Assembly: GCA_020055645.1 (NCBI GenBank)
Contig: CM034546.1
Location: 70,742,001-70,806,000 of the forward strand
DNA from: Tomocerus qinae
Taxonomy: Eukaryota; Arthropoda; Collembola; Entomobryomorpha; Tomoceridae
Direction: 5' to 3'
DNA length: 64,000 nt
Shown here: piece by piece, positions 5,201 to 50,987 of the stretch
How the letters are laid out: every line of letters starts with the position of its first letter
Position numbering within the stretch: position 1 is the stretch's first letter
The notes under the pieces: model-generated
Seen by the model: the letters and a program-made list of their open reading frames with translations, nothing else
Told to the model about the DNA's origin: nothing
The model's database searches: none
Program-made: the position numbers and the translations under genes

Positions 5201-5226
5201 ACATTTTAAATTTAAAGGAAGATAAT

Positions 5227-20261: not shown

Positions 20262-20445
20262 ATAATTTTTTATAATACATTTTATCCCATGTATTGAAAA
20301 TAAAATAAATATTGACTTAATGAAAAATAATTCCGCGTTCCGATATTTTTGGCCTTTTCAGGAATTTTTTAATGTGCTTGAAACAATAATTCCGCGCGGA
20401 ATTATTTCGATTATTACGGTATCTGAAAGACTACCTATCGTACAA

Positions 20446-20661
20446 TATTGCCCCGGAATACACACTAGCTTTATTTATAACAGGACTTGGGTCCTGTGAC
20501 CGGTACATTATATTAGTGATGAACTCAATTGAATGCCGGTGCAATAGGCCTACTAAAAACCATAATTCTTACAAAATTGTTTGTAGATGCACTAGCCCCA
20601 TGTACTACAGGACCTGGGTCCTGTGACCGCCTAGTAATATATAAAAGCATAATAAATAAGA
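20446..20661. repeat. Repeat with two hairpin-forming ACAGGACC-GGTCCTGT motifs
   Basis: Contains ACAGGACTTGGGTCCTGT and ACAGGACCTGGGTCCTGT, each able to fold on itself, about 120 bases apart. The whole block recurs inverted at 56610-56815, and a partial copy lies at 17671-17745. It forms the outer end of both long inverted arms. Confidence 0.55.
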
Positions 20662-20681
20662 TATAAGTCCTAAACATACAA

Positions 20682-21098
20682 ATTTGAGACGAGTGACCAG
20701 ACTACCACATATATATGTCCAGTAGATGATTTGGAAAGGACCTTAAAAATATGTAATTGAGGCTGGTACACATAATTGTTCACTAAAACGGAAAGGAAAG
20801 CTGCAACAAAATTTCAACAAAACAACAAACCTATAATCATTAATTAAAACACACACATGCATTTCTTTGAAATTTGTGCAGTGCATTGTTTAAGAAAGAT
20901 GTAGCCGTGGGAGATTATAAAAAAAGTTTTATCTATACCATAATTATATCCACTAATCTCTTGTTTGTATTACATTATAAATACAAATGCACTTTCCGAC
21001 AGCTATTTAGTTCATCGTTATTCATTATACATAGTTCTACCATAGATTACAATCTCAAAAGGCATACCGTCTCAATTGAAATAAATAGATTTTTCAAG
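20682..21098 (+). repeat. 5' leader of the CFA gene, part of a segmental duplication (copy A)
   Basis: From ACAAATTTGAGACGAGTGAC on, this matches 46078-46509 almost base for base, including the ATG-rich leader. In copy A a 4-base deletion (ATTTGTGC against ATTACATTGTGC in copy B) closes an upstream frame that in copy B is open from the ATG at 46264. The leader is therefore probably not coding in copy A. Confidence 0.6.
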
Positions 21099-22705
21099 AT
21101 GTTTTTCTTTTCTTCAACATTTTTCATTGTATATCAATTCATTGAAGCATTTTATCTACAGGTCAAATATCATATTTACAGATTCTTTCCTCCTGTAGTA
21201 GAATACGTTGTCAAAAGACGATTGGCAAGAATTAATACACTAAACGTGCTAGATAAAGAAAATCCATGGGGCCTAGAAATTTTTGACAAGAGTAAAGTTT
21301 TTGCAAGAATCGGTGCTTTTTCCTCGCTGGGAGTGGGAGAGGCATATATGGATAAGATCCTCGATTGCAAAGATCTGGTGGGACTTGTTGTGCAGTTTTC
21401 CACTGGCGATAACTATAAGCTATTTAATGGGTCTGGTTTCAGCCTACAGAAATATTTCAACTTACAAACAAAGAACCGAGCATGGGAAGTTGGGAAAAAG
21501 CATTACGATCTCGGTATGTGCAGTAAATATGTTCTGTTCTCTATGAGAAACTGAAGCGACTGTTTGATTATCATTGAGTTATGCCTTTCAACAGGGATGG
21601 CAGAAACAGTCAAACTTACATTTCTAGGAAACTTCCAAAAACTTGCCTATATATTAGTCAATGGTGGGTACTTGAGGTACGGAGAACGGGCGTGCCTTTG
21701 GATTTATCTGACCCATTAGCGAGATCTGCTTATTTCAAAATAAACTTATTGCTCTAAGCTTATTGCTTATTAAATAAGCTTATTGCTTCTAAGATAATAA
21801 TCTTAGAAGCAATAACTTTTTGCGCAGGAACCGCCATGAAGCAAAATTAGCCTCAACCATTTTTAAAAGCTCAGACTAAGAAATAACTGCCTTAAAGTAC
21901 TCTTCTATTTTATTCAGGTAACGACTTATTCGAGGCGATGTTGGATCCTTGGATGCAATACACTTGCGGGTACTGGAGAGATGCGACCAATTTACAAGAA
22001 GCACAAATTGCCAAAATGGATTTGATTGCAAGGAAACTGATGTTGAAGCCGGGAATGAAGATTCTTGATATTGGGTGCGGCTATGGCAGTTTGGCCAAAT
22101 ATTTAGCTGAAAAGTATAACGTACGAGTAGTTGGTGTCACAATTTCTGAAGAACAGGTCAAATATGCCAAAAAACATTTTGTACATCCTGACGTGGATAT
22201 CCTCCTAATGGACTACAGGGACGTGAATGAAGTATTTGACAGAGTTGTGTCAGTGGGAATGTTTGAACATGTTGGCCATGCCAATTATTCAACATTTTTT
22301 AAAACGGTACGCAAATGTCTAAAAGATAATGGAATATTTCTTTTGCACACTATAGGCATTTGTGACAGAGATCTGATTAATATCGAACCTTTTACACATA
22401 AATACATTTTCCCAAACGGTATATTGCCCCGACAAAACGAAATCGTTAACTACTTTCACGGTCATTTTTACCTTGAAGATTGGCATAACTTTGGTTATGA
22501 CTACAGCAAGACTCTTAAGGCATGGGAGAGTAATTTTCGAGAGGCGTGGCCCCGACTTCAATCTGCTTACGATGAAAGAATTTTTAGAATGTGGATATTT
22601 TATCTTTGCTCGGCAAATGCTTTTTTCATAACAAGAAAATTTAATTTGTATCAAATTGTTTTAACAAAAAAAGGTATGAAAGGAGGATACACATTTGTTC
22701 GATAA
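21099..22705 (+). CDS. Cyclopropane-fatty-acyl-phospholipid (CFA) synthase, two exons
   Basis: Exons 21099-21513 and 21918-22705 join (CTCG/GTATGT and TTTATTCAG/GTAA) in HYDLGNDLFEAMLDPWMQYT, giving 400 residues against 382 in E. coli Cfa. The enzyme transfers a methylene from S-adenosylmethionine to the double bond of an unsaturated phospholipid acyl chain. Motif I ILDIGCGYG is at 187-195; residues matching the bacterial active site are present: C155 (YTCGYW), E255 (GMFEHVG), H282 (LLHTIG) and Y334 (FGYDY). N-terminal residues 3-20 are hydrophobic and could anchor it in a membrane, unlike the bacterial form. All signature residues are intact, so activity is likely. The phase-1 intron excludes bacterial contamination. 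CFA synthases are rare in animals; horizontal origin is inferred. A broken copy lies at 46510. Confidence 0.85.
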
Positions 22706-22927
22706 AATAATTTGGGAAGTAATGCCCAGCAGCCTGTCATTATCATTATGTGAATTTTATGGAACAATCGCTAATTGTCATAATATTGCATTTTTTGTTG
22801 GACTGCGACCCGCTTGAAAATACTGGAAATGAAACGTAATATATGCTCTAAAAGCTGATATTTAAATAAAGAATCCCTAATACTAATAACCTAGTAAATA
22901 TAGCCAATGGTCAAAGATATATATATA

Positions 22928-23072
22928 GCGTCTGCTTAATATTACAACGTAACAAGCCATTTTATCATGGCTGCGACAATAACAAACATATCTCTTGATA
23001 CAATTGTTTGTTACATTGTCTCAGCTTAGCCATGATAAAATGGCTTGTTACGTTGTAATATTAAGCAGACGA
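22928..23072. mobile_element. Tc1/mariner-type MITE, 145 bp (copy 1)
   Basis: About 44-base near-perfect terminal inverted repeats (CGTCTGCTTAATATTACAAC inward) with a flanking TA on each side, plus an inner inverted repeat around GACAATGTAACAAAC. A close copy lies at 29845-29987. The element is absent after the paralogous CFA copy near 48220. Confidence 0.8.
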
Positions 23073-23079
23073 TAGATAG

Positions 23080-25895
23080 TTAATTGACTTTTAATTTCAA
23101 ACTACAATTAAAAACTAAGAGAATACCACATAGTAGTCAAGAATTGAGTTTTAAAAACTAAGCGATTGGGTATTTATATTAACTAAATGAAAAACAACTT
23201 AGTATACAACTAGGTCTTTAGTACTGCTATTGAATTTCAAATTGTGCGTCAATATTTGATCTAATTGCAAAACATTCTTATCCCAATAATCCCAAATGTA
23301 GTTCATTATTTTATTTATTGGAGAATATATAATTATATATATTATATTGATAATATGATTGTGTATGCGAAGAAACGAACAATAAAATACTACTACTACT
23401 ACCATTCGCTATATTTTCAAATTCTTCGCAGCTCAATCATTTTTAGAGTATATGGTTAAATTTAAATACCAATTTAATGTGCTGCCAAAAAGGAGGTCAA
23501 CACAACATAATAGATTTGATCCATATCCCGCAATAATTTACAAATGGGATTTGAAATCATTGGACTATCGAGTTTGAGTTTGCATCACCGTATTGAAAAA
23601 AAGTTTAGCTTCCTTTGGACTATATTATATTAGACAGAGTTTAAAAACGAAAAAAGCCTAGCTAGAAAATGATGCCAATTGAAAGTACGAATAAATAAAT
23701 ATATAATGCATCATTGCTTCTACCACATCGATCGAATATAGCAAGCAAACCTATTGAGGTTTCATGCTTCATGAATTTAGCATAAGAATATGTTAAGACT
23801 TTATATATACTAACTGCTGTTGAAACAGCACTATTTACCAGAGGTGGGCGCCATCCCTACTTTAACCATCCAAATATGACCCATATTCATACCCATCCCC
23901 TACTTTTATTTGATTTTAGGGATGGGATGGGAAGGGTAGTTACTTTTAAACCAAGTACGGGATGGGTACGGTATCTTCAGGTTTACATTATATTCAGAAG
24001 TATGCAGTGGGGATGGAAAGTCTTAATGTCAAGTAAGTAGGGGCCAGTACGGTATGACTTGAGCTGAGCTTTATGTGGTAGGGATGGGTAAGGTATGGCT
24101 TGAACCCAGCTTAAGTAGTAGGGATGAATACGGGAAGGATGACAGGAACCGTACACTCAACCTACTTACTTATTCGATTGTCTATAATATATTACCACTT
24201 ACGCACGTGGTATTCCAAGAAAAACAATATTACCACGAGCTTTATTACTATAAGGTCGAAACCAACAGCTCTATTTCTGATTGTTAGTAATTATATCTAT
24301 AAGTCTTCCACTGCGCACTTATTGACTACCAAAAAATTGTCTTTACATAATTAACAATAAATATTATTCAAGCTTTGTATACTTGAAGCATTTATGGGGT
24401 AGTTCATAATATATAGTGGCTATAGTTTTTAAGCGTATCTGTTCACTTCTCCTAAGTAAACAGTCCAATTCTGGGAACAAATTGTATTAATAGAAAGGTT
24501 ACAGCCATTTCCTTAGGGAATTGGTTTGTTTTCTGCTTTTACAACTTTGAATTATACAAAAAATTAACTTTACGTAAAGCAACACAATTTATTACATTGA
24601 TCTTGGCTTTTGACCCTTACATTAGGGATGGAGTACGGTAGGGTAAGGTATGGTTCCTTGTATCACAAGCTGAGTAGGGTAGGGTACGGTAAGACTGCTT
24701 ACTTTACTGGATGAGTACGGTAGGTTACGGTATGCTTTAGAATCCGACGGAGTGATATTTGGTAGGTAGGGTATGTTTCCTTACTATACCAGTTGGGTAG
24801 GGTAGGGTACGGTAAGACTCCTTACTTTACTGGTTGAGTACTGTAGGGTACGGTATGGTTCCTTACTTTACGAGTTTAGTATGGTAAGGTAAGGTATGCA
24901 AGTACGATCAAGCCCACCTCTGCTATTTACACTGTTGTCGCCAATTTGTCGGCTAGACTCATGGTCATAACTCTAGAAAGGTGAAACCAAGTTCGGTTTG
25001 CAGACAGTATTAGACTTGTGTTCTTTAGAACACAGAAAATCAAACATTAAACAAACGATGATATTTTATAGTTCTAATATTTAAGTTGACGTAAACAAGT
25101 TCAAAGTTGAAGCATGCATGCAATGACAATTATTTCGGCTGATATTGAAAAGCACAAAGTAGACCTCTGAATTGCCTATTGAACATCTTTCCGTTCGTGA
25201 GATTCTATTTTATAGTTAATGTGTTCTTCTAATACACAAATATAACGGACATCGCTTGTACAACATCATATCGGACAAGTACGTTGTGTTGTTTTTCAGT
25301 CCAAATTATTTACACAATCGTCGCCAATTTGTCGGCTAGAACTCCTTATTTCGCAGCAGTGAGTTAAAACAATATGTTTCAAATAGTTGGCCTATGTCCA
25401 TTTGAATACATGTAATGAACCATTAAACAAACACTATCAGCACGAAAACGTTAATACAAACAAGCATGCATGCAATGTGAGTATTACTTTCTTCCTGCTC
25501 TGACCTTAAGACGAGGCGAGGAAAAATCTATATTTTGTTTGTACTAAAATGAATATTAGTAACGTCCTTATTCTATTAAGCGTTTAGACTATTCTGTACG
25601 TAGTTCTCTCTAACAATTTAATTTTTTGGATAATTTTCTAAAAAAATATATAGAAAGATATAAGATAAGCTTTTTGTATTATCCAGGGAGTACGTCAATA
25701 TTAATATATATCACCTATATACTTTCACGAATAGTAATTAAATATTATAATATTGCTATACTGACGTTCCAAAATAACAAAACTATTTAAATACTTATTT
25801 TAACTTGTTTCTACAGGAAAATAATTTCAGGGTATCAAATTATTTAATTCAACATTTTTGAAAAATATTTAATAGTCAACATTTACTATCCTGAA
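23080..25895 (+). repeat. 5' flank of IR1 (segmental duplication unit A)
   Basis: The flank matches 48240-50987, 30000-31479 and 34935-36573, allowing for transposon insertions. It contains two copies of GTCGCCAATTTGTCGGCTAGA, near 24937 and 25320, a pair found ahead of every IR gene here. A short TACTACTACTAC run at 23388-23402 follows AATAAA, as in a SINE-like tail. A 1,084-bp transposon interrupts it. Confidence 0.65.
23839..24922. mobile_element. hAT-type non-autonomous element with internal GGTACGGTA repeats, 1,084 bp
   Basis: Ends are CAGAGGTGGGC and GCCCACCTCTG, the classic hAT form, flanked by CTATTTAC on both sides (23831-23838, 24923-24930). Inside are many imperfect copies of GTAGGGTACGGTA and GGGATGGGTA, at 23860-24130 and 24620-24900. 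The element is missing at the equivalent sites 30480, 35440 and 49015, so it inserted after the duplications. No transposase is visible. Confidence 0.85.
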
Positions 25896-28364
25896 ATGTT
25901 GGCACATTTGGCGTTAATATTTTTGTTGACTGAAATGGGTTTGGGCTGGAAATTGAAGGAGGTTTTGGAAATTGAAAAAGTTTGTCACATCAGTCTTCTA
26001 TTGCAGGATAGTGTCTTTACTGAAGCATTTGAGGAATCATTGCAAGAAGTAGATATCCCTTTTGCATTTACAAGACTGAAATTTCATGAGGAATTCTCTA
26101 GTTGTTCAATATCTTCAGCAGTTAACACCCCTTATGGAATTCCAGAATGCATTGTAAGAATAAACAAAATGGACCTTAATATTTCCTCCCCTCGCCCCTT
26201 GAGCCGTTTTGTTTGTGTGGCGCATATTTTGGTCAATTTCAATTCTATTAAAATTAGTGAAATATTTGTAACTAATTACATTAGTGAAAGATTTTCCAAA
26301 GTGTCAGAATATGAACGCAAAACGGGAGTGAATTGGCTAAACTGGTACAATTACGAAGAATATACTTCGGTTTACGTGATTGTCGAGCGGCAGTTTCTAG
26401 AGCTGGCAGAGGCAGGTCATATTATCTTTATTGATGACAACAAAATAGATCTTGAGGGTTGGGGTAGCAGTATAATATATCGTATATTCTATCGTAAATC
26501 ATGGTTTATACTGTCTTTGGAAGATGAAGACGATTTCTTGTATTCTATTTGTCCACATGATGCATTTTATTATTTTACAAGATTTACACTCACAATAATT
26601 CCTATATGTTCAGGAAACTATTGCCTCATTCAACAGTTACGTCAATTGGCGATCAGAAACTTCATCACAAAAAGTAATATTCCAAATTTAGCATATTTAC
26701 AAATTAATAACGGTGGTGTTTGGGAACGAATTTATAAAAAACATTACTGTGGACGGCAGCTTCAGAAAACATCTTTCACAAACACGTTTCTGAACGAAGA
26801 GCTTGGACCTTCAATTCCAATTTCTTCAATCATTTTCCAAAATTTCCCAAATGTGTCTGTTGGATTTATTTCTTGCGGTTATCATGTTCATTATTTAGAA
26901 TTAGATTTTCAACAAGAATCAGATTGGGACTACCATGGACCTCACTACATAGTAATTCCAACAATGGAGGATTCTATCAATTTTATTTCCTGCGTCGTTT
27001 TAGAAGATGAGAGTCTCTCTTTTTATGGATACATTAAACCTTTTGAACTCGAAGCATGGATAGGGTTTTTAATTACGATTATTATTTTAACTTCTTTTGT
27101 CTACGGAGTAATGTCTTACAAAAGTTATAGTAGTTTTCCGTTTGCTTTATTTTTCTGGGCAAATGTGTTAGATATCGATTATCCGTTATCAACGCAAACC
27201 AATAAAATTGTTTGGATCAAACTGATAATCGGTCCGTAGCTGCTCATGCTTATTGTACTGACAAACGCGTACAAGGGAATTGTAACTACTGATTTAGTGG
27301 AACCCCGTCCAGTAAAACAAATTGAATCGATGGAACATTTGGCTAATTTAACTGATTTTATAGCTCTTGGAGAATTTAAAGATAGCACTGAGTTCAATCC
27401 TTTCAATTTCAATCTACATAAGAGTGACCCATTAAGGCATTTAATACATGTTGAGAGCAACAATTGTCGGAAGTATTATTATTCACTTAAGACGAGAAGA
27501 GAAAAACAGTGTGATAAGTTAAGCAATTTAACTGCCGCTTTTTCGATGAAAAATGCATACGATGAAGACAACGATAGAATTATTAAATTTTTTAACTATT
27601 TCGAATCAATGCAAATTGGTGTTTTCAAGTTATTACATTTTTTGAATGCATACCTTCCAAAGCACAATAAGACTCTCAGTTTAAAAACATTGAATTCCGC
27701 CAATGCAATTGTGAAAACTTTACGCATTCCGCCTGAATTCTATTCTAAAAGTCCCTCAGAATGGATATCCCAGTGCAACAATTCTGTATTCATTATCAGA
27801 AGTTCTCGTCTGCATCGAACTCTGGACGATTCTCACTGGAATCCAGAAAGGGGAGGAGTTCGACCACTTAAGCAATTATATCAAGGAAATGAAGAAAATC
27901 CATTTATGCCTATGTCTGTACACACATCTTTTAGAAATCCATATATTCCCATGTTCACCACATTTTTGAGAGAGAAATTGCGTTCTGTGACACATTCGGG
28001 ACTTTACCAAAGATGGATTGATCATTTTAAGGAACGTAATTATACGAGGTGCAGTACTTGTTGGGACAGAGTTCCCCCAAGACCTTTAAACTTTTATAAC
28101 TCTAACATCGGCACAATATTTCCTATTTTTTCTTTCATCTTAGTTATATTTGCACTAGTCTTTACATGGGAAAAAAGGGCAAGATATAAACAATTTATCT
28201 ATTCCATCGCATTAGGTAGAGTTTTTAATTCTGTAAAAACTATTTATCATACCACTTTGCATTTCATTCGCTACCTAATAGCAAAGAAACGAACTCCAAT
28301 CCAATCGTTTGATTATCACTCTGGAAAAACTACAATGCAAAATAATAATAATTCACCTCGATGA
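25896..28364 (+). pseudogene. Divergent ionotropic receptor IR1, interrupted by one TAG codon
   Basis: The frame runs 822 codons from an ATG matching IR2-IR4, broken only by TAG at 27237-27239, where all three paralogues have TTG (Leu) inside the second membrane segment. Domain order as in ionotropic glutamate-receptor relatives: signal peptide (LALIFLLTEMGLGW), extracellular N-domain, segment 1 (EAWIGFLITIIILTSFVYGV), pore region, segment 2 (LLMLIVLTNAYKGIVTTDLV), ligand-binding lobe, segment 3 (IGTIFPIFSFILVIFALVF). The 372 codons after the stop are intact. It may be a very young pseudogene, a strain-specific null allele, or expressed by stop-codon readthrough, which is known for a fly IR (Ir75a of Drosophila sechellia). 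Without readthrough the product would lack segment 3 and half the ligand-binding site. Confidence 0.75.
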
Positions 28365-29987: not shown

Positions 29988-31479
29988 TATGCAATATATT
30001 ATGGAACAATTAAGGTGTATAGATATTCTTTACTCTTGGCTATTGCTCATTCGCTATATTCTCAAATTCTTCGCAGCTCAATCATTTTTAGAGTATATGG
30101 TTAAATTTAAATACGAATCTAATGTACGGCCAAAAAGGAGGTCAATAACAGAATAGATTTGATCCATATCTAGCAATAATTTACACATGGGGTTTCAAAT
30201 CATTATAAACTATCGAGCTTGAGTTTGCATCACCGTATTGAAAAAAAGTTTAGCTTCCTTTTGTTTTTAATATATTAGACAGAGTTTAAAGACGAAAAAC
30301 CGCCTAACTAGAAAATGATGCCAATTCAAAGTACGAATAAATAAATACATAATGCAGCATTGCTTCTACCACATCGAATATGACAAGCACACCTATTGAG
30401 GTTTCATGCTACTTGAATTTAGCATAAGAATAGGCTAAGACATTACATACTAATATTGTTTCTTGGAACAACACAATTTACCAAGTTGTCGCCAATTTGT
30501 CGGCTAGACTCATGGTTATATCTCTAGAAAGGTGAAACCAAGTTCGGTTTGTAGACAGTATTAAACTTGTGTCCTTTAGAACACAGAAAATCAAACATTA
30601 AATAAACTATGAGATATTATAGCCCTAATATTTAAGCTAAGGACAACAAGTTTGCATGTAATGAGGGTTATTTTGGCTGATATTGAAAAGCACAAGGTAA
30701 AACTACTAAATTATCTAATGGGTCCACGTGTACAATCATATCAATAGTGGTTTCATATTATACGAGTATGCATTTAGCAAAGACTGAGTCATTACATACA
30801 ATTAATCCTAAGTCCTAATGGTAATGTTAAATGTTTTTCGAACCACCAAATTATTTACAGTCGTTGCCAACCTGTAAGCTAGGTCCTTACAAGTTAAACG
30901 AAATGTATTTCAAATGGTTTGTCCGTGTCCATTTTAATGCCTGTAATCGATACCCGATACACACTGTCAAGACGAATAGGTTAATGCAAACAAATGTGAG
31001 TATTACTTTTTTCCTGCTATGACTGTAAGACAACGAGAGGCAAAAAGCTATTTAGTTTGTAAAATGGATATTAGTAGCGTTCCTATTCTTTTAAGCATTT
31101 AAACTATCCTGCAGATAGTTCTCTAAAAACCTATTTTTTTGGGCAATTTTCCCAAGCTATTGTATTATCCAGAGAATACTTTCATATCATTAACATGTTA
31201 TATTATATATTATTATAATATATCCACAGACATTGCAAAATAACATTATATAATAATGAAATTATTTTAACTTGCTTGTACAAGGCAAATCAACTTTAGA
31301 GTATCACTTTTAGGTCAACATAAAATTATACTGCAAATTCATATTGGATTTAGGTCTACCAGTCTGCCATTATAAATACATGGTACAAGCATTGTAAAAA
31401 ATTATTACCTGTTTATTTTGTGCTAAAGTGTATTAAATGTTTTGAAAAATATTGGTCAGGCATCATTTCCTATCCTGAA
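29988..31479 (+). repeat. 5' flank of IR2 (duplication unit B)
   Basis: Matches the flanks of IR3 and IR4 at high identity. Two copies of the GTCGCCAATTTGTCGGCTAG-type motif occur, near 30486 and 30852 (the second diverged). No gene is seen; the promoter of IR2 should lie here. Confidence 0.6.
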
Positions 31480-33933
31480 ATGTTGGCACATTTCGCGTTA
31501 ATAATTTTGCTGACTAAAATGGGTTTGGGCTGGAAATTGAAGGAGGTTTTGGACATTGAAAAAGATTGCCACGTCAGTCTTCTATTCCAGGATAGTGTCT
31601 TTACTCAAGCATTTGAGGAATCACTGCAAGAAATAGATATCCCTTTTGCATTTACAAGACTGAAATTTCTTGAGGAGTTTTTTAGTTGTTCAATACATTC
31701 AGCAGTTGACATTTATTATGACACACCAGACTGCATTTTTAGATTAAACAAAATGAACCTTAATATTTCATCCCCTCGGCCCCTGACCCGCTTTGTTTGT
31801 GTTGCGCACATTTTGATCAATTTCAATTCTATTAAAGTTAGTGAAGTATTTTTAACCAATTACATTAGTGAAAGATTTTCCAAAGTGTCAGAATATGAAC
31901 ACAAAACGGGAGTGAATTGGCTAAACTGGTACAATTACGAAGAATATACTTCTATATACTTGATTGTCGAGAGGAACTTTCTAGAGTTGGCAAAGTCAGG
32001 TCACAACTTCTTTATGGATGACAAAATATTATATACTTATAGGGGCTACAGTGCGACAAATATATATCGTCTATTCTATCGTAAATCATGGTTTATATTG
32101 TCTGTGGAGGATGAAGACAATTCCTTCTTGTATTTTATTTGTCCACAGTCAGCAAATGATTATTTTAGCGTATTTACATTCACAATAATTCCTATATGCT
32201 TCGGAAACTATTGCCTTGGTCAACCGTTACGTCAAATGGGGATCAGAAACTTCATCACAAAAAGTGATATTCCAAACTTAGTATTTTTAGGAATTCATGA
32301 TGGTGATGCTTGGGAAAGATATGATAAAACCCAATACTGTGGACGACAGCTTCAGAAAACTTCTTTTACAAAAACGTTTTTAAATGAAGAGTTTGGACCT
32401 TCGATTCCAATTTCTTCTATTATTTTCGAAAGTTTCCCAAATTTGACTTCAGGATTCATAGATTGTAGTTATAGAGGTAGTATTATAGATTTAGATTTTC
32501 AACAAGAATCTGATTGGGATTATTATAGACCGCACTACATAGTAATTCCAACAATGGAGGATTCTATCAATTTTATTTCCTGCGTCGTTTTGGAAGATGA
32601 GAGCCTCTCTTTCTATGGATACATTAAACCTTTTGAACTCGAAGCATGGATAGGATTCCTCATTTCAGTTATTATTGTAACTGCTTTCGTCTACGGAGTA
32701 ATTTCTTACAAAAGTTATAGTAGTTTTCCGTTTGTTGTAATTTTCTTGGCATATATGTTGGAAGTCAGTTATCCGTTATCCACGCTGGCCAGGAAAAAGA
32801 TTTGGTTCAAACTGATAATCGGTCCTTTGCTGCTCATGCTTATTGTACTGACAAACGAGTACAAGGGAATTGTAACTACTGATTTAGTGGAACCCCGTCC
32901 AGTTAAGAAAATTAAATCGATGGAACATTTGTCTAGATTAACAGATTTTATAGCTCTTGGAGAATTTAAGGATAGCACTGAGTTCAATCCTTTCAATTTT
33001 AACCTAAATAAAAACGACCCACTAAGGAAACTAATAAAGGATTTTATCAACCATTGTCCCCAAGGTGATACTAAAGACTTGTGTGATAATTTAGGGATTT
33101 TAACTGCCAATTTTTCACTGAAAAATGCATACGATGAAGATGACGATAGAGTTATTGAATTTTTTAACAGTTTTGAAACACTAAAAAATGATGTTTTTAA
33201 GTTAATACATTTTTTGAATTCCTACCTCTCAAAGCATAAAAAGACTCTCAGTTTAAAAACATTGAATTCTGCCAATGCAATTATCAAAACGTTTCGTATT
33301 CCACCAGAATTCTATACAAAAAGTCCTTCAGAATGGATATCCCAGTTCAACAATTCTGTATTCATTATCAGAAGTTCTCGCCTGCATCGAACCCTGGACG
33401 ATTCTCACTGGAATCCAGAAAGGGGAGGAGTTCGACCACTTAAGCAGTTATACCAAGGAAATGGAGAAAATCCGTTCATGCCTATGTCTGTACACACATC
33501 TTTTAGAAATCTATATATTCCCATGTTCACCACATTTCTGAGAGAAAAATTACGTTCTGTGACTCATTCTGGACTTTACCAAAGATGGATAGAGCATTTT
33601 AAGGAACGTAATTACACAAGATGCAAAACTTGTTGGGACAGAGTTCCCCCAAGACCTTTAAACTTTTATAACTCTAATATCGGCACAATATTTCCTATTT
33701 TTTCTTTCTTCTTAGTTATATTTGCAGTAGTGTTTACATGGGAGTACAGGGCAAGATATAAAAAAATTATCTATTTCCTCGCATCAGGTGGATTTTTTAA
33801 TTGTGTAAGAAATAAATGTCGTACTGTTTGGCATTTAATTTACCAACTGACACCAAAGAATCAAACTCCAGTCCAAACGTTTGATTATCACTCTGAAAAT
33901 ACAATACGAAATAATATTAAGTCACCTCGATGA
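31480..33933 (+). CDS. Divergent ionotropic receptor IR2, intact
   Basis: This is an 817-residue protein from ATG 31480; the frame extends upstream to 31420 without an ATG. It has a signal peptide (FALIILLTKMGLGW), a long extracellular part with scattered cysteines, membrane segment 1 at about 388-411 (EAWIGFLISVIIVTAFVYGV), a pore-like stretch ending YPLST, segment 2 at about 441-465 running into TNEYKGIVTTDLVEPRP, the position of the conserved SYTANL-type motif of glutamate receptors, then the second ligand-binding lobe and segment 3 at about 733-755. Arthropod IRs are ligand-gated cation channels on chemosensory neurons, usually working with co-receptors. Single exon, as is usual for divergent IRs. 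It is one of four tandem paralogues. The ligand cannot be predicted. Confidence 0.75.
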   Translation: MLAHFALIILLTKMGLGWKLKEVLDIEKDCHVSLLFQDSVFTQAFEESLQEIDIPFAFTRLKFLEEFFSCSIHSAVDIYYDTPDCIFRLNKMNLNISSPRPLTRFVCVAHILINFNSIKVSEVFLTNYISERFSKVSEYEHKTGVNWLNWYNYEEYTSIYLIVERNFLELAKSGHNFFMDDKILYTYRGYSATNIYRLFYRKSWFILSVEDEDNSFLYFICPQSANDYFSVFTFTIIPICFGNYCLGQPLRQMGIRNFITKSDIPNLVFLGIHDGDAWERYDKTQYCGRQLQKTSFTKTFLNEEFGPSIPISSIIFESFPNLTSGFIDCSYRGSIIDLDFQQESDWDYYRPHYIVIPTMEDSINFISCVVLEDESLSFYGYIKPFELEAWIGFLISVIIVTAFVYGVISYKSYSSFPFVVIFLAYMLEVSYPLSTLARKKIWFKLIIGPLLLMLIVLTNEYKGIVTTDLVEPRPVKKIKSMEHLSRLTDFIALGEFKDSTEFNPFNFNLNKNDPLRKLIKDFINHCPQGDTKDLCDNLGILTANFSLKNAYDEDDDRVIEFFNSFETLKNDVFKLIHFLNSYLSKHKKTLSLKTLNSANAIIKTFRIPPEFYTKSPSEWISQFNNSVFIIRSSRLHRTLDDSHWNPERGGVRPLKQLYQGNGENPFMPMSVHTSFRNLYIPMFTTFLREKLRSVTHSGLYQRWIEHFKERNYTRCKTCWDRVPPRPLNFYNSNIGTIFPIFSFFLVIFAVVFTWEYRARYKKIIYFLASGGFFNCVRNKCRTVWHLIYQLTPKNQTPVQTFDYHSENTIRNNIKSPR

Positions 33934-36573
33934 CTCATTTACAAACTGTAATGAAGGAAAACCTTCCCTGAATTCCAAATGCATAGTATTGATGACTAAT
34001 TTGCATTATTACAAATACCAAATTCCTAAAAGATTAGGTATTTCTGTTCATGCAGGATACGAAGTTATATTATTCCATAACCACAGCCACATAGACATTT
34101 TGTTTATCTACCTGGTTACAATGTTAAGATTTTTATGATGCATAAAATATACTTTTAATAGGTCTACTATTTACAGAATCCTGTTATCACAATACAAATT
34201 GCTTAGGTCTGGCTATTTTATTTCTATTATTATAATATGTATCAATGGTATGATATTTGTAGGTTTTCATTTCACCTACAAGCACAAAAGTGTTTATGTG
34301 ATTTCTCTTAATTTGCTAACCAATAAATTCCACTCTCGTTTTTAAACATTGTAGTATTTATTAATTAACTTTTTACGCCGTAAAAGTACCTTTTGCTCTA
34401 AAATACACTTTAGGATCTGCTTTAATGCTTTTTAGTACCTTACCCTACAATACTCAACCCTTACAGTAGGGAATCATACCGTAACCTACCATATTCAACC
34501 CGTCAGATTGTAAAACCTAACGCGCATTATCATATTTATACTCAATTTGTAAAGTAAGGAATCATATCGTTACCTATGGTACTACATCCGTAAAGTAAAG
34601 GCAAAAAAACATGTCGTTAATCAATTGTATTTTTGTTGTAGTGTTGATTAAGGTAAGAAACGAAATGATTGCCCAAATAGTCTTTACTAACTGCTATTGT
34701 ATACAGCAATCGGTTAACGATCTATGTCTGTTGCTAGCTTCTTTACACAGTTTCAATTTCTATATAATTAATAAGACATTTGTAAAGGACTAAAACTTTT
34801 AATAATTCCTAGCATAAAATAATTGATTTTGTATTTTGTCTAAAAGTATGCAGAAGCAAAACAGACAAATGTTATGAACAAAGAGTTTTGTTCGAAGTAA
34901 TCATGTTCTATATTTTCGCATTATTTTTCACAAGACATAATAATATGTAATATATGGAACAATTAAGGTGTATAGGTATTCTTTACTCTTGGGTATTGAT
35001 CATTCGCTATATTTTTTAAATTCTTCGCAGCTCAATCATTTTCAGAATATACAGTTAAATTCAAATACGAATCTAATGTACTGTCAAGGAGGTCAATACA
35101 ACAGAATAGATTTGGGCCATATCACGCAATAATTTACACATTGGGTTTTAAATCATTGAACTATCGAGTTTGAGTTTGCATCACCGTATTGAAAAAAGGT
35201 TTAGCTTCCTTTTGTCTACATATTGTATGTAGACAGAGTTTAAAGACGAAAAAATCCTAGCTAGAAAATGATGCCAATTCAAAGTGCGAATAAATAAATA
35301 TAATATATGCAGCATTGCTTCTATGACATCAAATATGACCCTCTCATATAATATCGAGGTTTCATGCTACTAGAATTTAGCATAAAAATAGGCTAAGACA
35401 TTGCACATTAATATTGCTTTTAAGAAACCACACTATTTACACTGTTGACGCCAATTTGCCGGGTAGACTCATGGTCATATTTCTAGAAAGGTGAAACCAA
35501 GTTCGGTTTGCAGACAGCATTAGACTTACGTGTCCTTTAGAATACAGAAAATAAAACATAAAATAAACTATGATATCCTGTAGCTCTAATATTTAGTTGA
35601 CATAAACAAGTTGCATGCAATGAGGTTTATTTTGGCTGATATTGAAAAGCACAAGGTGGAACTACTAAATTATAGATTGGGCATCATTAGGTTCATGAGA
35701 ATCTACTTGTAGATTCTATGTGCCTCGAATACATAAATATAATACAGCATATCTTGTACAACCAAACCTCATATAAGTATATCAATAGTGGTTTCATATT
35801 ATACGAGTATGCATTTAGCAAAGACTGAGTCATTACATTCAATTAGTCCTAAGTCCTAATATGGTAATGTTTTTCAAACCACTAAATTATTTACAGTCGT
35901 CGCCAATTTGTCAGCTAGAAGTCCTTATATTATAGTTTGCAGCAGTAAGTTAAACTAATGTATTTCAAATGGTTGGACCGTGTCCTTTTAATACCTGTAA
36001 TCAATACTCAATATACACTATCAATACAAATAGGTTAATGCAAACAATTGAAAACATGCCTGAGATGCCTGCAATATGAGTATTACTTATTCCTTCCTGC
36101 TATGACTGTAAGACAACGCGAAGCAAAAAGCAATTTAATGTGTAAAATGGATATTAGTAGCGTTCTTATTCTTTTAGTATTTAAACTATCATTCAGGTAG
36201 TTGCAACCTAATTTTTTGGAAAATTTTTCCAAGCTTTTAGTATTATCCATAGGGAATACTTTCATAGCAATAATATGTCACATCATATTATTATTATATT
36301 ATAATATATCCACTGACGTTGCAAAACAACATTACTAATGAAATTAATTTAACTTGCTTGTACAAGGTAAATTAACTGTAGAGTATCACATTTAGGTCAA
36401 CATAAAATTATTACAAATTCATTTTGGATTTAGGTCTACCAGTCTGCTATTATAGATACATTGTATGTACAAGCATTGCAAAAATTATTACCTGTTTATT
36501 TTGTGCTAAGGTGTGTTAAAACTTTTGAAAAATATTGACCATCATCAATATCAGCATCATTTACTATCCAAAA
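33934..36573 (+). repeat. IR2-IR3 spacer (end of unit B, 5' flank of unit C)
   Basis: 33934-34930 repeats the IR1 3' flank without its insertion; 34935-36573 repeats the IR2 5' flank. IR2 and IR3 start codons are 5,094 bases apart, one repeat unit. The paired GCCAATTTG motif is near 35448 and 35897. No separate gene is seen. Confidence 0.6.
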
Positions 36574-39033
36574 ATGTCTGCATATTTGGCTTTAATATTT
36601 CTGTTGACTGAAATGAGTTTGGGCTGGAAATTGAAGGAGGTTTTGGAAATTGAAAAAAATTGCCACGTCAGTCTTCTATTCCAGGATAGTGTCTTTACTC
36701 AAGCATTTGAGGAATCATTGCAAGAAGTAGATATCCCATTTGCATTTACAAGACTGAAATTTGTTGAGGAGTTTTCTAGTTGTTCAATATTTTCAGCAGT
36801 TGATATTTATTATAACATACCAGCATGCATTACTAGAATAAACAAAATGAATCTTAATATTTCCTCCCCTCAGCCCCTGAGCCGTTTTGTTTGTGTGGCG
36901 CACATTTTGGTAAATTTCAATTCTATTAAACTTAGTGAAGTATTTGTAACCAATTACATCAGTGAAAGATTTTCCAAAGTGTCAGAATATGAACGCAAAA
37001 CGGGAGTGAATTGGCTAAACTGGTACAATTTTGAAGAATATACTTCTATATACTTGATTGTCGAGCGGAACTTTCTAGAGTTGGCAAAATCAGGTCACAT
37101 CTTTATTGATGACAATAAATTAATTACTTATAGGGACTACAGTGCGACACACATATATCGTATATTCTACCGTAAACCATGGTTTATATTGTCTTTGGAG
37201 GATGAAGACAATTCCTTCTTGTATTTTATTTGTCCACAGTCAGCAATTGAAAATTTTAGCGTATTTACATTCACAATAATTCCTATATGCTTCGGAAACT
37301 ATTGCCCCGGTCAACCGTTACGTCAATTGGCAATTAAAAACTTCATCACAAAAAGTAATATTCCAAACTTAGCATATTTAAAAATTCATGATGGTGACGT
37401 TTGGGAAAGATATAATAAAGCCAATTACTGTGGACGACAGCTTCAGGAAACATCTTTCACAAAAACGTTTTTAAATGAAGAGTTCGGACCTTCGATTCCA
37501 ATATCTTCTATCATTTTCCAAAATCTTCCAAATTTGACTTCAGGATTTATAGATTGTAGTTATCAAATTAATATTGTAGATTTTGATTTTCAACAAGAAT
37601 CTGATTGGGATTATGTTGGACCTCACTACATAGTAATTCCAACAATGGAAGATTCTATCAATTTTATTTCCTGCGTCGTTTTAGAAAATGAGAGTCTCTC
37701 TTTTTATGGATACATTAAACCTTTTGATCTCGAAGCATGGATAGGGTTTTTGATTACAATTATTGTTGTAACTGCTTTTGTCTACGGAGTAATGTTTTAC
37801 AAAAATGATAGTAGTTTTCCGTTTGCTTTGCTTTTATTGGCAAATGTGTTGGATATCGATTATCCGTTATCAACGCAGACTTATAAAATTGTTTGGATCA
37901 AAGTGACAATCGGTCCGTTGCTGCTCATGCTTATTGTACTGACAAACGCGTACAAAGGAATTGTAACTACTGATTTAGTGGAACCCCGTCCAGTAAAACA
38001 AATTGAATCGATGGAACATTTGGCTACTTTAACAGATTTTATAGCTCTTGGTGAATTTAAAGATAGCACTGAGTTCAATCCTTTCAATTTCAATCTAAAT
38101 AAAAGTGACCCATTAAGGGGATTAATACACTATAAAAGTCGCCGTTGTCAAAGGGGCTATAATGAACATAATACTAAAGGCACGTGTGATAATTTACGGA
38201 ATTTAACTGCCAATTTTTCGATGAAAAGTGCATATGATGAAGATGACGATAGAATTATTGAATTCTTTAACAGTTTTGAGACACTAAAAAATGATATTTT
38301 TAAGTTATTACATTTTTTGAATTCATACCTCTCAAAGCACATTAAGACTCTCAGTTTAAAAACATTGAATTCTGCCAATGCAGTTATCAAAATTATTCGT
38401 ATTCCGCCTGAATTCTATTCTAAAAGTCCCACAGAATGGATATCCCAGTGCAACAATTCTGTATTCATTATCAGAAGTTCTCGTCTGCATCGAACTCTCG
38501 ACGATTCTCATTGGAATCCAGAGAAGAGAGGATTTACACCACTTAAGCAATTATATCAAGGAAAGGAAGAAATTCCGTTTATGCCTATGTCTGTCCATAC
38601 ATCTTTTAGAAATCCACTTATTCCCATGTTCACCACATTTCTGCGAGAGAAATTACGTTCTGTGACTCATTCGGGACTTTACCAGAGATGGATAGAGCAT
38701 TTTAAGGAACGTAATTATACGAGGTGCAAAACTTGTTGGGACAGAGTTCCCCCAAGACCTTTAAACTTTTATAACTCTAATATCGGCACAATATTTCCTA
38801 TTTTTTCTTTATTTTTAGTCATTTTTGTAGTAGCATTTACATGGGAGAACAGGGCAAATTATAAACAATTTATCTATTTCCTCGCATCAGGTGGATTTTT
38901 TAATTATGCAAAAACTAAATGTCGTACTGCTTTGCTTTTAATTCACCATCTAATACCAAAGAATGAAACTCCAGTCCAAGCGTTTGAATATCACTGTGAA
39001 AATACAATACGAAATAATAAGTCACCTCAATGA
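36574..39033 (+). CDS. Divergent ionotropic receptor IR3, intact
   Basis: An 819-residue paralogue of IR2 with the same plan: signal peptide (YLALIFLLTEMSLGW), extracellular N-domain, segment 1 (EAWIGFLITIIVVTAFVYGV), segment 2 (LLLMLIVLTNAYKGIVTTDL), ligand-binding lobe with LHRTLDDSHWNPEKR, and segment 3 (IFPIFSLFLVIFVVAFTWEN). Start chosen at ATG 36574; the frame opens earlier at 36535 without ATG. Between segments 1 and 2 it resembles IR1 (VLDIDYPLSTQ), whereas its C-terminus is nearly identical to IR4 (HHLIPKNETPVQ), a sign of exchange between paralogues. A chemosensory channel is inferred from family; ligand unknown. Confidence 0.75.
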   Translation: MSAYLALIFLLTEMSLGWKLKEVLEIEKNCHVSLLFQDSVFTQAFEESLQEVDIPFAFTRLKFVEEFSSCSIFSAVDIYYNIPACITRINKMNLNISSPQPLSRFVCVAHILVNFNSIKLSEVFVTNYISERFSKVSEYERKTGVNWLNWYNFEEYTSIYLIVERNFLELAKSGHIFIDDNKLITYRDYSATHIYRIFYRKPWFILSLEDEDNSFLYFICPQSAIENFSVFTFTIIPICFGNYCPGQPLRQLAIKNFITKSNIPNLAYLKIHDGDVWERYNKANYCGRQLQETSFTKTFLNEEFGPSIPISSIIFQNLPNLTSGFIDCSYQINIVDFDFQQESDWDYVGPHYIVIPTMEDSINFISCVVLENESLSFYGYIKPFDLEAWIGFLITIIVVTAFVYGVMFYKNDSSFPFALLLLANVLDIDYPLSTQTYKIVWIKVTIGPLLLMLIVLTNAYKGIVTTDLVEPRPVKQIESMEHLATLTDFIALGEFKDSTEFNPFNFNLNKSDPLRGLIHYKSRRCQRGYNEHNTKGTCDNLRNLTANFSMKSAYDEDDDRIIEFFNSFETLKNDIFKLLHFLNSYLSKHIKTLSLKTLNSANAVIKIIRIPPEFYSKSPTEWISQCNNSVFIIRSSRLHRTLDDSHWNPEKRGFTPLKQLYQGKEEIPFMPMSVHTSFRNPLIPMFTTFLREKLRSVTHSGLYQRWIEHFKERNYTRCKTCWDRVPPRPLNFYNSNIGTIFPIFSLFLVIFVVAFTWENRANYKQFIYFLASGGFFNYAKTKCRTALLLIHHLIPKNETPVQAFEYHCENTIRNNKSPQ

Positions 39034-46509: not shown

Positions 46510-48187
46510 ATGTTTTTCTTTTCTTCAACATTTTTCATTGTATATCAATTCATTGAAGCATTTTATCTACAGGTCAAATATCATATTTACAGATTCTTTC
46601 CTCATGTAGTAGAATACATTGTCAAAAGACGATTGGGAATTAATATTGGGAGTTGGAGAGGCATATATGGATAAGATCCTCGATTGCAAAGATCTGGTGG
46701 GACTTGTTGTGCAGTTTTCCGCTGGCGATAACTATAAGCTATTTAATGGGTCTGGTTTCAGCCTACAGAAATATTTCAACTTACAAACAAAGAACCGAGC
46801 ATGGGAAGTTGGGAAAAAGCACTACGATCTCGGTAAGTACAGTAAATATTATGTTCTCTCTAAAAAACTGAAGCGACCGCTTGATTATCATTGAGTTAAA
46901 CCTTTCAACAGGGATGGCAGTCAAACTTACATTTCTAGGAAACTTCCAAAAACTTGCCTATTAGTCAATGGTGGGTACTATAGGGACGAGTGGGGAACGG
47001 AGTGTGTGCCAATGTTTGGGTTTATCTGACGCATTGGCGAGATCTGCTACTTATGCGTTTATTTCAAAATAAACTATCTTAGAAGCAATAACATTTTGCG
47101 CAGAGGAGCCACCATAAAGCAAAATTAGCTTCAACCATTTTTAAAAATTCAGACTAAGAAATAATTGCCTTAAATTCTAAATGATCCAGGTAACGACTTA
47201 TTCGAGGCGATGTTGGATCCTTGGATGCAATACACTTGTGGGTACTGGAGAAATGCGACCAATTTACAACAAGCACAAATTGCCAAAATGGATTTAATCC
47301 CAAGGAAACTGAGGTTGAAGCCGGGAATGAAGATTCTTGATATTGGATGCGGCTATGGCAAATTGGCCAAATATTTAGCCGAAAAGTATAACGTGCGAGT
47401 AGTTGGTGTCACAATTTCTGAAGAACAGGTCAAATATGCCAAAAAACATTTTGTACAACCTGACGTGGATATCGATCGTCCCTTAAGGAACCAAATAGCC
47501 TATCTCCACTTTTCGTTTTGTCTGCGAAATAACCTAAATCCATTTTTCGTTTTGTGGACGAAATAGCCTATCTCCATTTTTCGTTTTGTGGACGAAATAG
47601 CCTATCTCCATTTTTCGTTTTGTGGACGAAATAGCCGAAATAGGCTATTTGATATTTGGTTCCTTAAGGGACGATATCCTCCTGATGGACTACAGGGACG
47701 TGAATGAAGTATTTGACAGAGTTGTGTCGGTGGGAATGTTTGAGCATGTTGGCCATGCCAATTATTCCACATTTTTTAAAACGGTACGCAAATGTCTAAA
47801 AGATAATGGAATATTTCTTTTGCACACTATAGACATTTGTGACAGAGATGTGATTAATATCGAACCTTTTATGCATAAATACATTTTCCCAAACTATGTA
47901 TTGCCCCGACAAAACGAAATCGTTAATTACTTTCACGGCCATTTTTACCTTGAAGATATGGCATAACTTTGGTTATGACTACAGCAAAACTCTTAAGGCA
48001 TGGGAGAGTAACATTCGAGAGGCGTGGCCTCCCACTGCTTCAATCTGCTTACGATGAAAGATTTTTTAGAATGTGGATATTTTATCTTTGCTCGGCAAAT
48101 GCTTTTTTCATAACAAGAAAAATTAATTTGTATCAAATTGTTTTAACAAAAAATGGCATGAAAGGAGGATACACATCTGTTCGATAA
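46510..48187 (+). pseudogene. Broken duplicate of the CFA synthase gene
   Basis: A close copy of 21099-22705 with several lesions. About 91 bases are missing in exon 1 at 46640 (the segment just before GVGEAYMD), a frameshift. A 200-bp MITE sits in exon 2 at 47474-47673, splitting the methyltransferase domain after motif I. One extra base near 47957 (GAAGATATGG for GAAGATTGG) and a small indel near 48030 break the end. Much of exon 2 remains nearly identical, including MFEHVG and LLHTI, so the loss is recent. A GT donor and AG acceptor are still present (CTCG/GTAAGT; CCAG/GTAACG at 47190) but the pyrimidine tract is weak. Its leader from 46078 matches copy A. Confidence 0.9.
47474..47673. mobile_element. 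200-bp MITE inside the CFA pseudogene, with internal tandem repeats
   Basis: Inverted ends CGTCCCTTAAGGAACCAAAT and complement; ATATC (or GATATC) on both sides looks like the target duplication, since copy A has a single GATATCC here. The interior holds about two and a half copies of a 34-base unit containing CGTTTTGTGGACGAAATAGC. Class not determined (5-6-bp duplication). Confidence 0.8.
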
Positions 48188-48239: not shown

Positions 48240-50987
48240 TAATATACTTAATTGACTTTTAATTTTAAACTACAATTAAAAACTAAGAGGAGACCACATA
48301 GTATTCAAGAATTGAGTTTTAAAAACTAAACGATTGAATTTATATCTACTAAATAAAAAACAACTTAATATTATTCAACTAGGCTTTTAGTACTGCTATT
48401 GAATTACAAAATATTTGTGCGTCAATATTTGATCTAATTGCAAAACATTCTTATCCCAATAATCCCAAATGTAGTTTATTATTTTATATATTGGAGAATA
48501 TATAATAATATATACTATATTGATATGATTGTGATTGTGTATGCGAAGAAACGAACAATAAATACTACTACTACCATTCGACATATTCTCAAATTCTTCG
48601 CTGCTCAATCGCTTTTAGAGTATAATATGGTCAAATTTAAATACGAATCTAATGTACTGACAATTAGGAGGTCAATACAACAGGATAGATTTGATCCATT
48701 TCACGCAATAATTTACACATTGGGTTTCAAATCATTGGACTATCGAGCTTGAGTTTGCATTACCGTATTGAAAAACAGTATAGCTTACTTTTGACTATTT
48801 TATATTAGACAGAGTTTAAAGACGAAAAAAGCCTAGCTAGAAAATGATGCCAATTAAAAGTAAGAATAAATAAATATATAATGCAGCATTGCTTCTGCCA
48901 CATCGAATACGACAAGCACACCTATTTAGGTTTCATGCTACTTGAATTTAGCATAAGAATTTAAGAATAGACTAAGACACTACATACTAATATTGTTTCT
49001 TAGAACAACACAATTTACCAAGTTGTCGCCAATTTGTCGGCTAGACTCATGTTTATATCTCTAGAAAGGTGAAACCAAGTTTGGTTTGTAGACAGTATTA
49101 AACTTGCGTCCTTTAGAATACAGAAAATCAAGCATTAAATAAACTATGAAATATTATAGCCCTAATATTAAAGTTAAGGAAAACAAGTTTGCATGTAATA
49201 ATGGCTGAAGGTTATTTTTTGGCTGATATTGAAAAGCACAAGGTGAAACTACTAAATTATCTATTGGGTCCACGTGTACAATCATATCAATAGTGATTTC
49301 ATACGAGTATGCATAAAGACTTTACAAGAGTCATTACAAAGTTAGTCCTAAGTCCTAATATGGTAATGTTAAATGTTTTTGAAACCACCAAATTATTTAC
49401 AGTCGTTGCCAATTTGTAAGCTAGAAGTCCTTATATTATAGTCTGCAGCAGCAAGTTAAACGAAATGTATTTCAAATGGTTAGCCCGGGTCCATTTTAAT
49501 GCCTGTAATCGATACTCAATACCAAGACGAATAGGTTAATGCAAACAAATGAAAGTTCGCATGCAATGTGAGTATTACTTCCTTCCTGCTATCAAGGGCG
49601 TATCTAGAAATTGGATCTAGGGGGTGCTAATTTCTAAAAATGAGTATTACATAAATCAAGCAATTAGAACCGTCATTACAAGCACGTATACAGAACTGAG
49701 TTTCGAAAGGGGCTTATTCCAATAGATATGTTAATGATATTTACTCGCGCGTAGCGCGAAAATTTTTAGACTTTTTTGACGGAAATGTGTCAAAAAAGGC
49801 CTAAAAAAGGAAATAATCGCGCGGAGCGCGAAATTTTTTGTGATTTTGAGAAAAAATGCCTCTTTTCGTTGATTTTGGTAAAGCCCATCCCTTAATACAT
49901 CCTTGCATCATTATATCAGTAAAAAAGAAGAAATATACGCGCGAAGCGCGAAAAAAATTATGATTTTTAATCTTTGTCAAAAAAATCCACTTTATATCAA
50001 GATTAAGGGGCTGGGGGCCTTTTAAATATGTGATTTATCTGTCATCACCCACCCAGTTCGACCGATTTAGTTTCAGATGCTTTAAACAGAAAATCTCATT
50101 TCAGAAGTGGTCAATTGCTAAGCACATTTCCATTTTGTAACAATATAATATAAAGTAATCTTGGCATTTTATTCTGAATATTTGTAACATGTATTATTTT
50201 ATTTTGTGTGATGGGCGACAGCCCGCTGGAAGCGCAAATAAAACCCTACTACTACTACTACTACTACTACATATAAAGTAATCTCAGATCCTAAGGTTCA
50301 ATACAGGAAAAAAAGGATTCGAAAATGTTCAAACATATTCGAAAATGCTCGAAAATAAAATATATGTTATTGTGTCATATGAAAAAGAAAATATGTTTCC
50401 TCCAATTTGGAATTAAATACTTGAATATTACATAAGCGGTGAAAACGCGATAACACCTATATAGTGTGCTTTCAAAATATTTAGGGGGTGCTTAAGCACC
50501 CTAGCACCCCCCCTAAATACGTCCTTGCCTGCTATGACTGTAAGACAACGAGAGGCAAAAAGCTATTTAGTTTGCAAAATGGATATTAGTAGCGTTCTTA
50601 TTCTTTTAAATATTTAAACTATCCTGCAGATAGTTCTCTAAAAACCTATTTTTTTGGACAATTTTCCCAAGCTTTTGTATTATCCAGGGAATACTTTCAT
50701 ATCATTAACATGTTATATTATATATTATTATAATACATCCACAGACATTGCAATATAACATTAATAATGAAATTATTTTAATTTGCTTGTACAAGGTAAA
50801 TTAATTTAGAGTATCACATTTAGGTCAACATAAAATTACTACAAATTCATATTGGATTTAGGTCTACCAGTCTGCCATTTTAAGTACATGGTACAAGCAT
50901 TCACAAAAATTATTACCTGTTTATTTTGTGCTAAAGTGCATTAAATGTTTTAAAAAATATTGGTCAGGCATCATTTTCTATCCTGAA
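48240..50987 (+). repeat. 5' flank of IR4 (duplication unit D)
   Basis: Matches the region after the intact CFA gene (23080 on) and the 5' flanks of IR1-IR3, so the order CFA-flank-IR was copied as a block. The paired GCCAATTTGT motif is near 49024 and 49407. The flank is interrupted by the 935-bp element at 49593. Confidence 0.65.
49593..50527. mobile_element. hAT-type non-autonomous element, 935 bp, 8-bp target duplication
   Basis: Ends CAAGGGCGTATCTAG and complement of CAAGGACGTATTTAG, flanked by CCTGCTAT (49585-49592, 50528-50535); the IR2 flank has one uninterrupted copy of that word near 31012. Both ends carry a G/C-run GGGGGTGCT. Inside are three CGCGCG-N-AGCGCG palindromes (49746, 49817, 49938) and, at 50212-50271, a retroelement-type tail (GATGGGCGACAGCCCGCTGG, AATAAA, then TAC repeats), a nested insertion. 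Confidence 0.85.

Follow-up and report, generated by a model that had tools for sequence, protein, structure and literature searches.

Bacterial-type cyclopropane fatty acid synthase genes form an expanded, intron-bearing family in the genome of the springtail Tomocerus qinae

Judged from its predicted proteins and gene structures, the cyclopropane fatty acid (CFA) synthase family of the springtail Tomocerus qinae is real and well supported as a family of bacterial-type animal genes that has expanded and is under selection. Its origin is likely to lie in gene transfer, and its likely function is in cyclopropane lipid synthesis. The explanation that best accounts for the whole, and that we hold with considerable confidence, is an old transfer of a bacterial cfa gene followed by gain of an intron and of a hydrophobic N-terminus, growth to at least 21 loci and recruitment to cyclopropane lipids. 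The analysis centres on a stretch of 64,000 nucleotides (here 'the window', C1:70742001-70806000) in an assembly of 334,443,149 bases in 115 contigs, of which C1 measures 140 Mb and C2 72 Mb. The window contains one intact gene (gene A) and one broken copy (gene B), both on the + strand.

As far as its predicted product can tell, gene A is intact and belongs, as an animal representative, to the cyclopropane fatty acid synthases of E. coli type. Joining positions 21099-21513 and 21918-22705 yields a spliced open reading frame of 400 amino acids plus stop. Exon 1 (21099..21513) codes for residues 1-138 and ends one base into the Gly139 codon, beginning at an ATG whose place matches the start in most paralogs when spliced models are compared; exon 2 (21918..22705, stop included) encodes the SAM-binding and catalytic domain PF02353 with C155, E255, H282, I284 and Y334. 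Between them lies a phase-1 GT-AG intron of 404 nt (21514..21917) that starts with GTATGT, ends with TTCAG and interrupts the Gly codon of HYDLG|ND; read without splicing, it has stops throughout. An AATAAA at 22865..22870 (+), of low information alone, is a possible polyadenylation signal. The 1200 nt of coding sequence align without gaps to those of the paralog L040 at 93.8% identity, as compared with 58.5% for the intron. Since the coding sequence is conserved and the intron diverged, and since all 21 loci are broken at the same codon and in the same phase, the intron is independently supported, and the GT-AG intron proposed in the preliminary description is borne out by the in-frame join, the splice-site sequences and the shared position.

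The gene A protein matches the NCBIfam model NF008686 (PRK11705) with E=2.2e-140 and 468.1 bits, the equivalog cut-off being 400, and the alignment runs from residue 51 to 399 of the protein and from 31 to 382 of the 383 model positions. The Pfam model PF02353 gives 300.7 bits, and the best solved relative, top of 63 distinct PDB sequences, is E. coli Cfa (6BQC; 358.7 bits, E=4.2e-106). In the alignment to 6BQC, whose chain numbering is one above that used in the preliminary description, C155, E255, H282 and Y334 of gene A are the residues named there as C139, E239, H266 and Y317, and all are kept. Also conserved is I284, the equivalent of I268, which we take to be the fifth active-site position of E. 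coli Cfa, and the SAM-binding motif reads LDIGCGYG. The earlier claim that the active-site residues and the SAM motif are all present therefore stands, and at the level of sequence the protein keeps the parts needed for E. coli-type cyclopropanation. The five positions are retained in 17 of the 21 loci, broken loci counted in. The remaining four carry substitutions: E to A in L037; E to V in L044; C to N and H to Q in L047; and H to Q, I to S and Y to F in L048. Among the bacterial rows of our alignment 21 of 22 keep all five, the one deviating row (L018) having H to Q; this change thus occurs in bacteria as well. The altered active sites of the four paralogs suggest that these may serve side functions.

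Ahead of the conserved core, gene A has a hydrophobic extension of about 50 amino acids (21099..21248, +), which hydropathy marks as a possible membrane anchor. The usual transmembrane cut-off is a mean hydropathy of about 1.6. Residues 1-50 are indeed hydrophobic, and the best 19-residue window averages 1.39, which falls below that level, so that of the anchor suggested in the preliminary description the hydrophobic character holds and the anchor itself is plausible only. Across the family the best value ranges from 0.79, obtained for L041 on a doubtful 5' model, to 2.08 (19 of the 21 animal rows, those with at least 19 residues before the core). The bacterial rows range from -0.66 to 1.85 (21 of 22 measurable), and their upper values, such as the 1.85 of L018, may include untranslated sequence, since the rows were not trimmed to start codons. 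A membrane-bound helix is a fair and plausible reading of this N-terminus.

A PF02353 profile search of the genome returned 26 pieces that resolve into at least 21 loci. Two clusters of six lie on C1, at 22.26-22.32 Mb and at 70.56-70.79 Mb, the latter including the two copies in the window; eight further C1 loci are dispersed (50.9, 64.0, 105.16, 105.18, 120.9, 122.1, 124.9 and 126.9 Mb), and C2 carries one. The 19 loci outside the window, in 18 stretches, were modelled with a purpose-written spliced protein aligner that had been checked on the window gene. In these sequence models the phase-1 intron sits at the same codon in 21 of 21 loci. A second intron, of phase 2 and at residue 186, is common to L045, L047 and L048; L046 has an additional intron at 297, and L034 uses a GC donor. 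Seventeen of the 21 models are free of stops and frame breaks; the broken or incomplete ones are window copy B, L032b, L033 and L035. L041 and L044 have uncertain 5' ends, and the one of L031 was completed by eye; a 5' intron that the aligner placed in L041 was discarded as a probable artefact, exon 1 being open there. Identity to gene A spans 37-95% over the 21 loci and 37-65% for the dispersed paralogs. Beside L044, the most divergent paralog, fatty acyl-CoA reductase-like exons were recognised by eye in head-to-head orientation (L044 5892-7472; C1:64.04 Mb), with a METTL7-like frame, likewise by eye, on the other side. Fatty acyl-CoA reductases as a class serve the making of hydrocarbons and waxes; the pairing is a hint only, because L044 has lost the active-site E.

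The intact copies are under purifying selection. We compared 17 pairs, of which 11 join intact-looking copies; one of these 11 was saturated, and dN/dS in the other ten is 0.117-0.310, while the six pairs that include a broken copy give 0.147-0.330. When five pairs were split by exon, dN/dS was higher in exon 1 than in exon 2 in four (for example 0.381 and 0.143 for gene A against L040), the exception being genes A and B (0.255 in exon 1 and 0.276 in exon 2). In four close pairs the coding sequences are 93.0-94.2% identical, as compared with 58.5-88.5% for the introns and 50.0-69.5% for the first 300 nt after the stop.

Gene B (46510..48187, +), located by a protein search of the window and by DNA alignment, is a damaged sister of gene A. 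Its exon 1 has suffered a deletion and its exon 2 an insertion, other small breaks interrupt the frame, and the intron is retained at 46833-47189, in the same place as in gene A. The insertion (47468..47672, +; about 205 nt) is MITE-like: its ends are inverted and it includes a tandem repeat of 34 nt (47493-47636). The two genes are identical across about 300 bases that run from upstream sequence into the beginning of exon 1, and their aligned DNA blocks are 88.6-97.4% identical overall. Self-comparison of the window delimits a duplicated block holding gene A and its downstream sequence (20667..23789), matched piecewise by 46069-48960 around gene B. The region upstream of gene A (18187-20645) has an inverted copy at 56600-59530 with 89-94% identity in pieces. 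The window further contains a 20-bp satellite array of about 1.3 kb (43744-45106) whose orientation switches at around 44390, with short repeats related to it on either side (43435-43555 and 45298-45415).

Four genes for multi-pass proteins that resemble ionotropic receptors (IR-like, an identity assigned by eye only) form a tandem array on the + strand: gene 1 at 25848..28364 (two frames split by a stop), gene 2 at 31354..33933 (an 859-aa frame), gene 3 at 36529..39033 (an 834-aa frame) and gene 4 at 50862..53148 (two frames). Gene 1 lies downstream of gene A and gene 4 downstream of gene B; because genes A and B hold the same position before them, the CFA gene and its neighbour seem to have been duplicated together. 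The preliminary description had placed the CFA gene next to chemoreceptors, which we could not confirm: gene 3, the sole one of the four that was searched, has no Pfam match and a single chance PDB hit at E=1, and a structure model built from three of the IR-like proteins was uninformative (pLDDT 27). The CFA cluster at 22.3 Mb has a relative of these proteins next to it (34% identity; L036 128-904), and L046 is adjoined by an IR-like C-terminus, recognised by eye (L046 1-471). Elsewhere in the window, a single-exon gene at 5143-6474 encodes DUF5077 and DUF3472 (Pfam E 3.9e-34 and 6.1e-97). Both domains are known mainly from bacteria, and this gene is perhaps a further transfer.

A scan of genome contigs returned 22 relatives, whose best segments are 34 to 48% identical. 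Core identity between each animal locus and the nearest of 22 bacterial rows is 39-56%, and 49.9% for gene A. In a first tree of 40 rows (18 animal, 22 bacterial; three broken copies left out) the animal sequences form one clade with support 100/98. A second, made by a quick method from 81 rows (18 animal, 63 bacterial; L010, L021, L022 and the three broken copies left out), has all animal sequences on one side of a branch with support 100 and length 0.36. The third comprises 45 rows, 17 animal (L044 omitted as a long branch) and 28 bacterial, the latter hand-chosen from 65 and including two distant outgroup rows; here the animals again form one clade (100/99), within a polytomy of bacterial lines, in a tree whose bootstrap is unsettled and whose outgroup branches are long. 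A link of the animal clade to Kaiserbacteria in the first tree (97/88) vanished with more bacteria in the second and third and was dropped. For a donor we sampled 369 Gammaproteobacteria, 296 Bacteroidota and 286 Patescibacteria genomes, of which 304, 211 and 155, respectively, had a match. The best hits of the paralog L046 in the three samples are 53-54% identical and close together in score (435-447 bits); therefore no single donor group stands out among them, and we name none. A search for a viral carrier, one IMG/VR scan with the gene A protein that reaches close relatives only, gave one pattern match and no relative.

Because the intron is shared by 21 loci, the animal sequences form one clade, identity within the family (37-95%) stands against 39-56% to bacteria, and dN/dS is 0.12-0.31, the family appears to be old, naturalised and expanded. 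The preliminary description had spoken of a transferred and naturalised gene. The intron, the chromosomal linkage, the co-duplication with IR-like genes, the host-like composition and the purifying selection agree with that description; what has to be revised is the picture of a lone gene, gene A being one of at least 21 loci with a broken sister in the same window. That a bacterial-type CFA gene has been made part of an animal genome is supported by these predicted structures. Contamination of the assembly by bacteria or by DNA of a symbiont would explain a protein of bacterial type, but it fits neither a spliceosomal-type intron in all 21 loci nor their spread over contigs of 140 and 72 Mb together with co-duplicated neighbour genes, and the exon GC (0.37) and GC3 (0.36) of gene A are near the window's 0.31-0.40; on introns, linkage and composition we reject it, with a residual probability that is practically negligible. 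It is also very unlikely that the loci are a decaying family without function. The four broken or incomplete loci, and four others with changed active sites, are what such decay would leave, but dN/dS well below 1 among the intact copies, and a coding sequence conserved over intron and flank, are not.

Two further readings, both unlikely, carry more weight. Of the two, the less improbable is that the family is an old eukaryotic one, kept in some invertebrates and lost elsewhere, with no lineage-specific bacterial transfer. The low identity to bacteria (39-56% to the best of 22 rows, 53-54% for the best hits of L046), the long stem of 0.36 in the second tree and the mere 37-65% identity between gene A and its dispersed paralogs all indicate great age for the family; against it, with two distant CFA/CMAS rows as root the CFA clade falls within the bacterial diversity of PRK11705 type, in trees with long-branch roots that hold animal and prokaryote rows only. 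The other, which we rate slightly lower still, is that the CFA fold is used here for methyl-branched chains and not for cyclopropanes. Some mycobacterial relatives of CFA synthases do make methyl-branched chains. The altered active sites of four of the 21 paralogs could be taken in this sense, and methyl-branched long chains are reported from Orchesella cincta and Tomocerus vulgaris (PMC11321324). However, the five cyclopropane-synthase positions are intact in gene A and in 17 of 21 loci, and arthropod methyl branches have another usual source: those of arthropod hydrocarbons normally derive from methylmalonyl-CoA.

Under the explanation that we prefer, an old transfer with later expansion, a bacterial cfa gene, from a donor that we infer to have been bacterial, would have entered the ancestry of the springtail at an early date; there it would have acquired a hydrophobic N-terminus and, at HYDLG|ND, an intron, and tandem and dispersed duplication would have multiplied it to at least 21 loci. 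E. coli Cfa transfers the methyl group of SAM to the cis double bond of a phospholipid acyl chain, the ring then being closed. The springtail enzyme, sitting on a lipid membrane or droplet, would likewise move the methyl of S-adenosylmethionine onto the cis double bond of an acyl chain and close a cyclopropane ring, and its products would include cuticular or membrane lipids resembling the cis-cyclopropane hydrocarbon of Vertagopus sarekensis. That compound, sarekensane, is reported as a dicyclopropane cuticular hydrocarbon of this springtail arising from the fatty acid pathway, its structure, cis,cis-3,4,13,14-bismethylene-24-methyldotriacontane, having been proved by synthesis (PMC10825826). 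Its authors remark that cis-cyclopropanes usually arise via S-adenosylmethionine methylation of a double bond, and caution that in GC-MS a cyclopropane closely resembles an alkene (PMC10825826). In a 23-species springtail survey, as far as its accessible part goes, a cyclopropane hydrocarbon is reported only from V. sarekensis. The statement in the preliminary description that cyclopropane lipids are not a normal animal product was accordingly too strong: besides sarekensane there is the cis-9,10-methyleneoctadecanoic acid of a millipede (PMC10825826), and cfa genes are described from Formica ants (PMC13320244).

A bolder proposal, which we put forward tentatively and consider somewhat more doubtful than probable, is that springtails own an ancient, expanded bacterial-type synthase family with which they make their own cyclopropane waxes and membrane lipids, that some springtail 'alkenes' are really cyclopropanes, and that the paralogs with altered sites have moved to other SAM-dependent lipid chemistry. 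If true, cyclopropane hydrocarbons would be a home-made product of a basal hexapod class. The family provides candidate genes for the cyclopropane chemistry reported from springtail skin in 2023 and could explain the cyclopropane wax; its 17 intact-looking genes and two tandem clusters make a direct test possible. The heptacosadiene, heptacosene and nonacosene of Tomocerus vulgaris, which were deduced from mass spectra (PMC11321324), deserve a second look.

Other features of the same genome may be recorded here. A long nuclear mitochondrial copy with a full-length cox1 lies at C1:36.67 Mb (L053/L054). From ARAGORN tRNAs and open frames, with atp8 outside the reading, its order is I, -Q, M, nd2, W, -C, -Y, cox1, L2, cox2, K, D, atp6, cox3, G, nd3, A, R, N, S1, -E, -F. 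A trnL(UUR) between cox1 and cox2 marks Pancrustacea, and the copy follows the pancrustacean pattern except for an inverted trnE, which had no match among the springtail mitochondrial orders compared from the accessible literature. At least four stop-free open frames of 2375-2456 aa (parts of 1449-1455 residues were read) carry NRPS condensation domains (L056-L059; C1:108.42, 41.02, 39.01 and 41.17 Mb); among arthropods, animal NRPS genes are reported from a spider mite and springtails (PMC10531068). Taken together, the mitochondrial pattern and the NRPS genes point most probably to Collembola, the class of T. qinae, although the inverted trnE speaks mildly against a routine collembolan order. 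A single-exon gene, L066 1697-2734 (C1:120.03 Mb), encodes a dioxygenase whose nearest solved relative is a 2-oxoglutarate-dependent ethylene/succinate-forming enzyme (9OVH, 489 bits), and is possibly another transferred gene. This gene was the best PF14226 hit when beta-lactam genes were sought as a marker of Collembola, and by the same match it is an ethylene-forming-enzyme-like dioxygenase and not isopenicillin N synthase; a second PF14226 frame, L067, received no NCBIfam name (two of 19 PF14226 hits were examined).

Compared with known systems, the springtail family is like E. coli Cfa (PRK11705/NF008686; 6BQC) in family membership, near full-length alignment, SAM motif and active-site residues, and differs from it in the added hydrophobic N-terminus, the introns and the presence of at least 21 loci in one genome. 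The sarekensane system presents the product of the chemistry expected of such an enzyme, in the same animal class but in another species, V. sarekensis, and the available text of PMC10825826 names no gene or enzyme. Plant, fungal and Leishmania CFA synthases, named in PMC13320244, are likewise eukaryotic uses of a bacterial-type enzyme. Among the papers listed by our search of the open-access literature, none reports CFA synthase genes in springtails. That an arthropod should have a CFA synthase is not without precedent, because Formica and Iberoformica ants possess bacterial cfa of Sodalis-like origin, acquired in one transfer about 33 million years ago (PMC13320244). Like the springtail family, the ant case is one of a bacterial cfa gene duplicated in an arthropod genome; the ants have fragments and full-length expressed copies, with 87 cfa transfers and 20 full-length expressed genes in eight species, the clade-specific transfers averaging about 75% identity to the bacterial reference (PMC13320244). 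The springtail loci differ in that they reach at most 56% to the bacteria sampled, with 49.9% for gene A (best of 22 rows) and 53-54% for L046, well short of the roughly 75% of a Formica-type transfer, and in that no donor is visible, the intron is family-wide and the N-terminus is hydrophobic; introns go unmentioned for the ant genes in the accessible text of PMC13320244. By its sequence divergence, the springtail family would have been acquired from bacteria earlier than the lipid enzyme of the ants, and what it adds to the ant precedent is this divergence, the shared intron, the N-terminus, the number of loci within a single genome and the connection with a product known from an animal.
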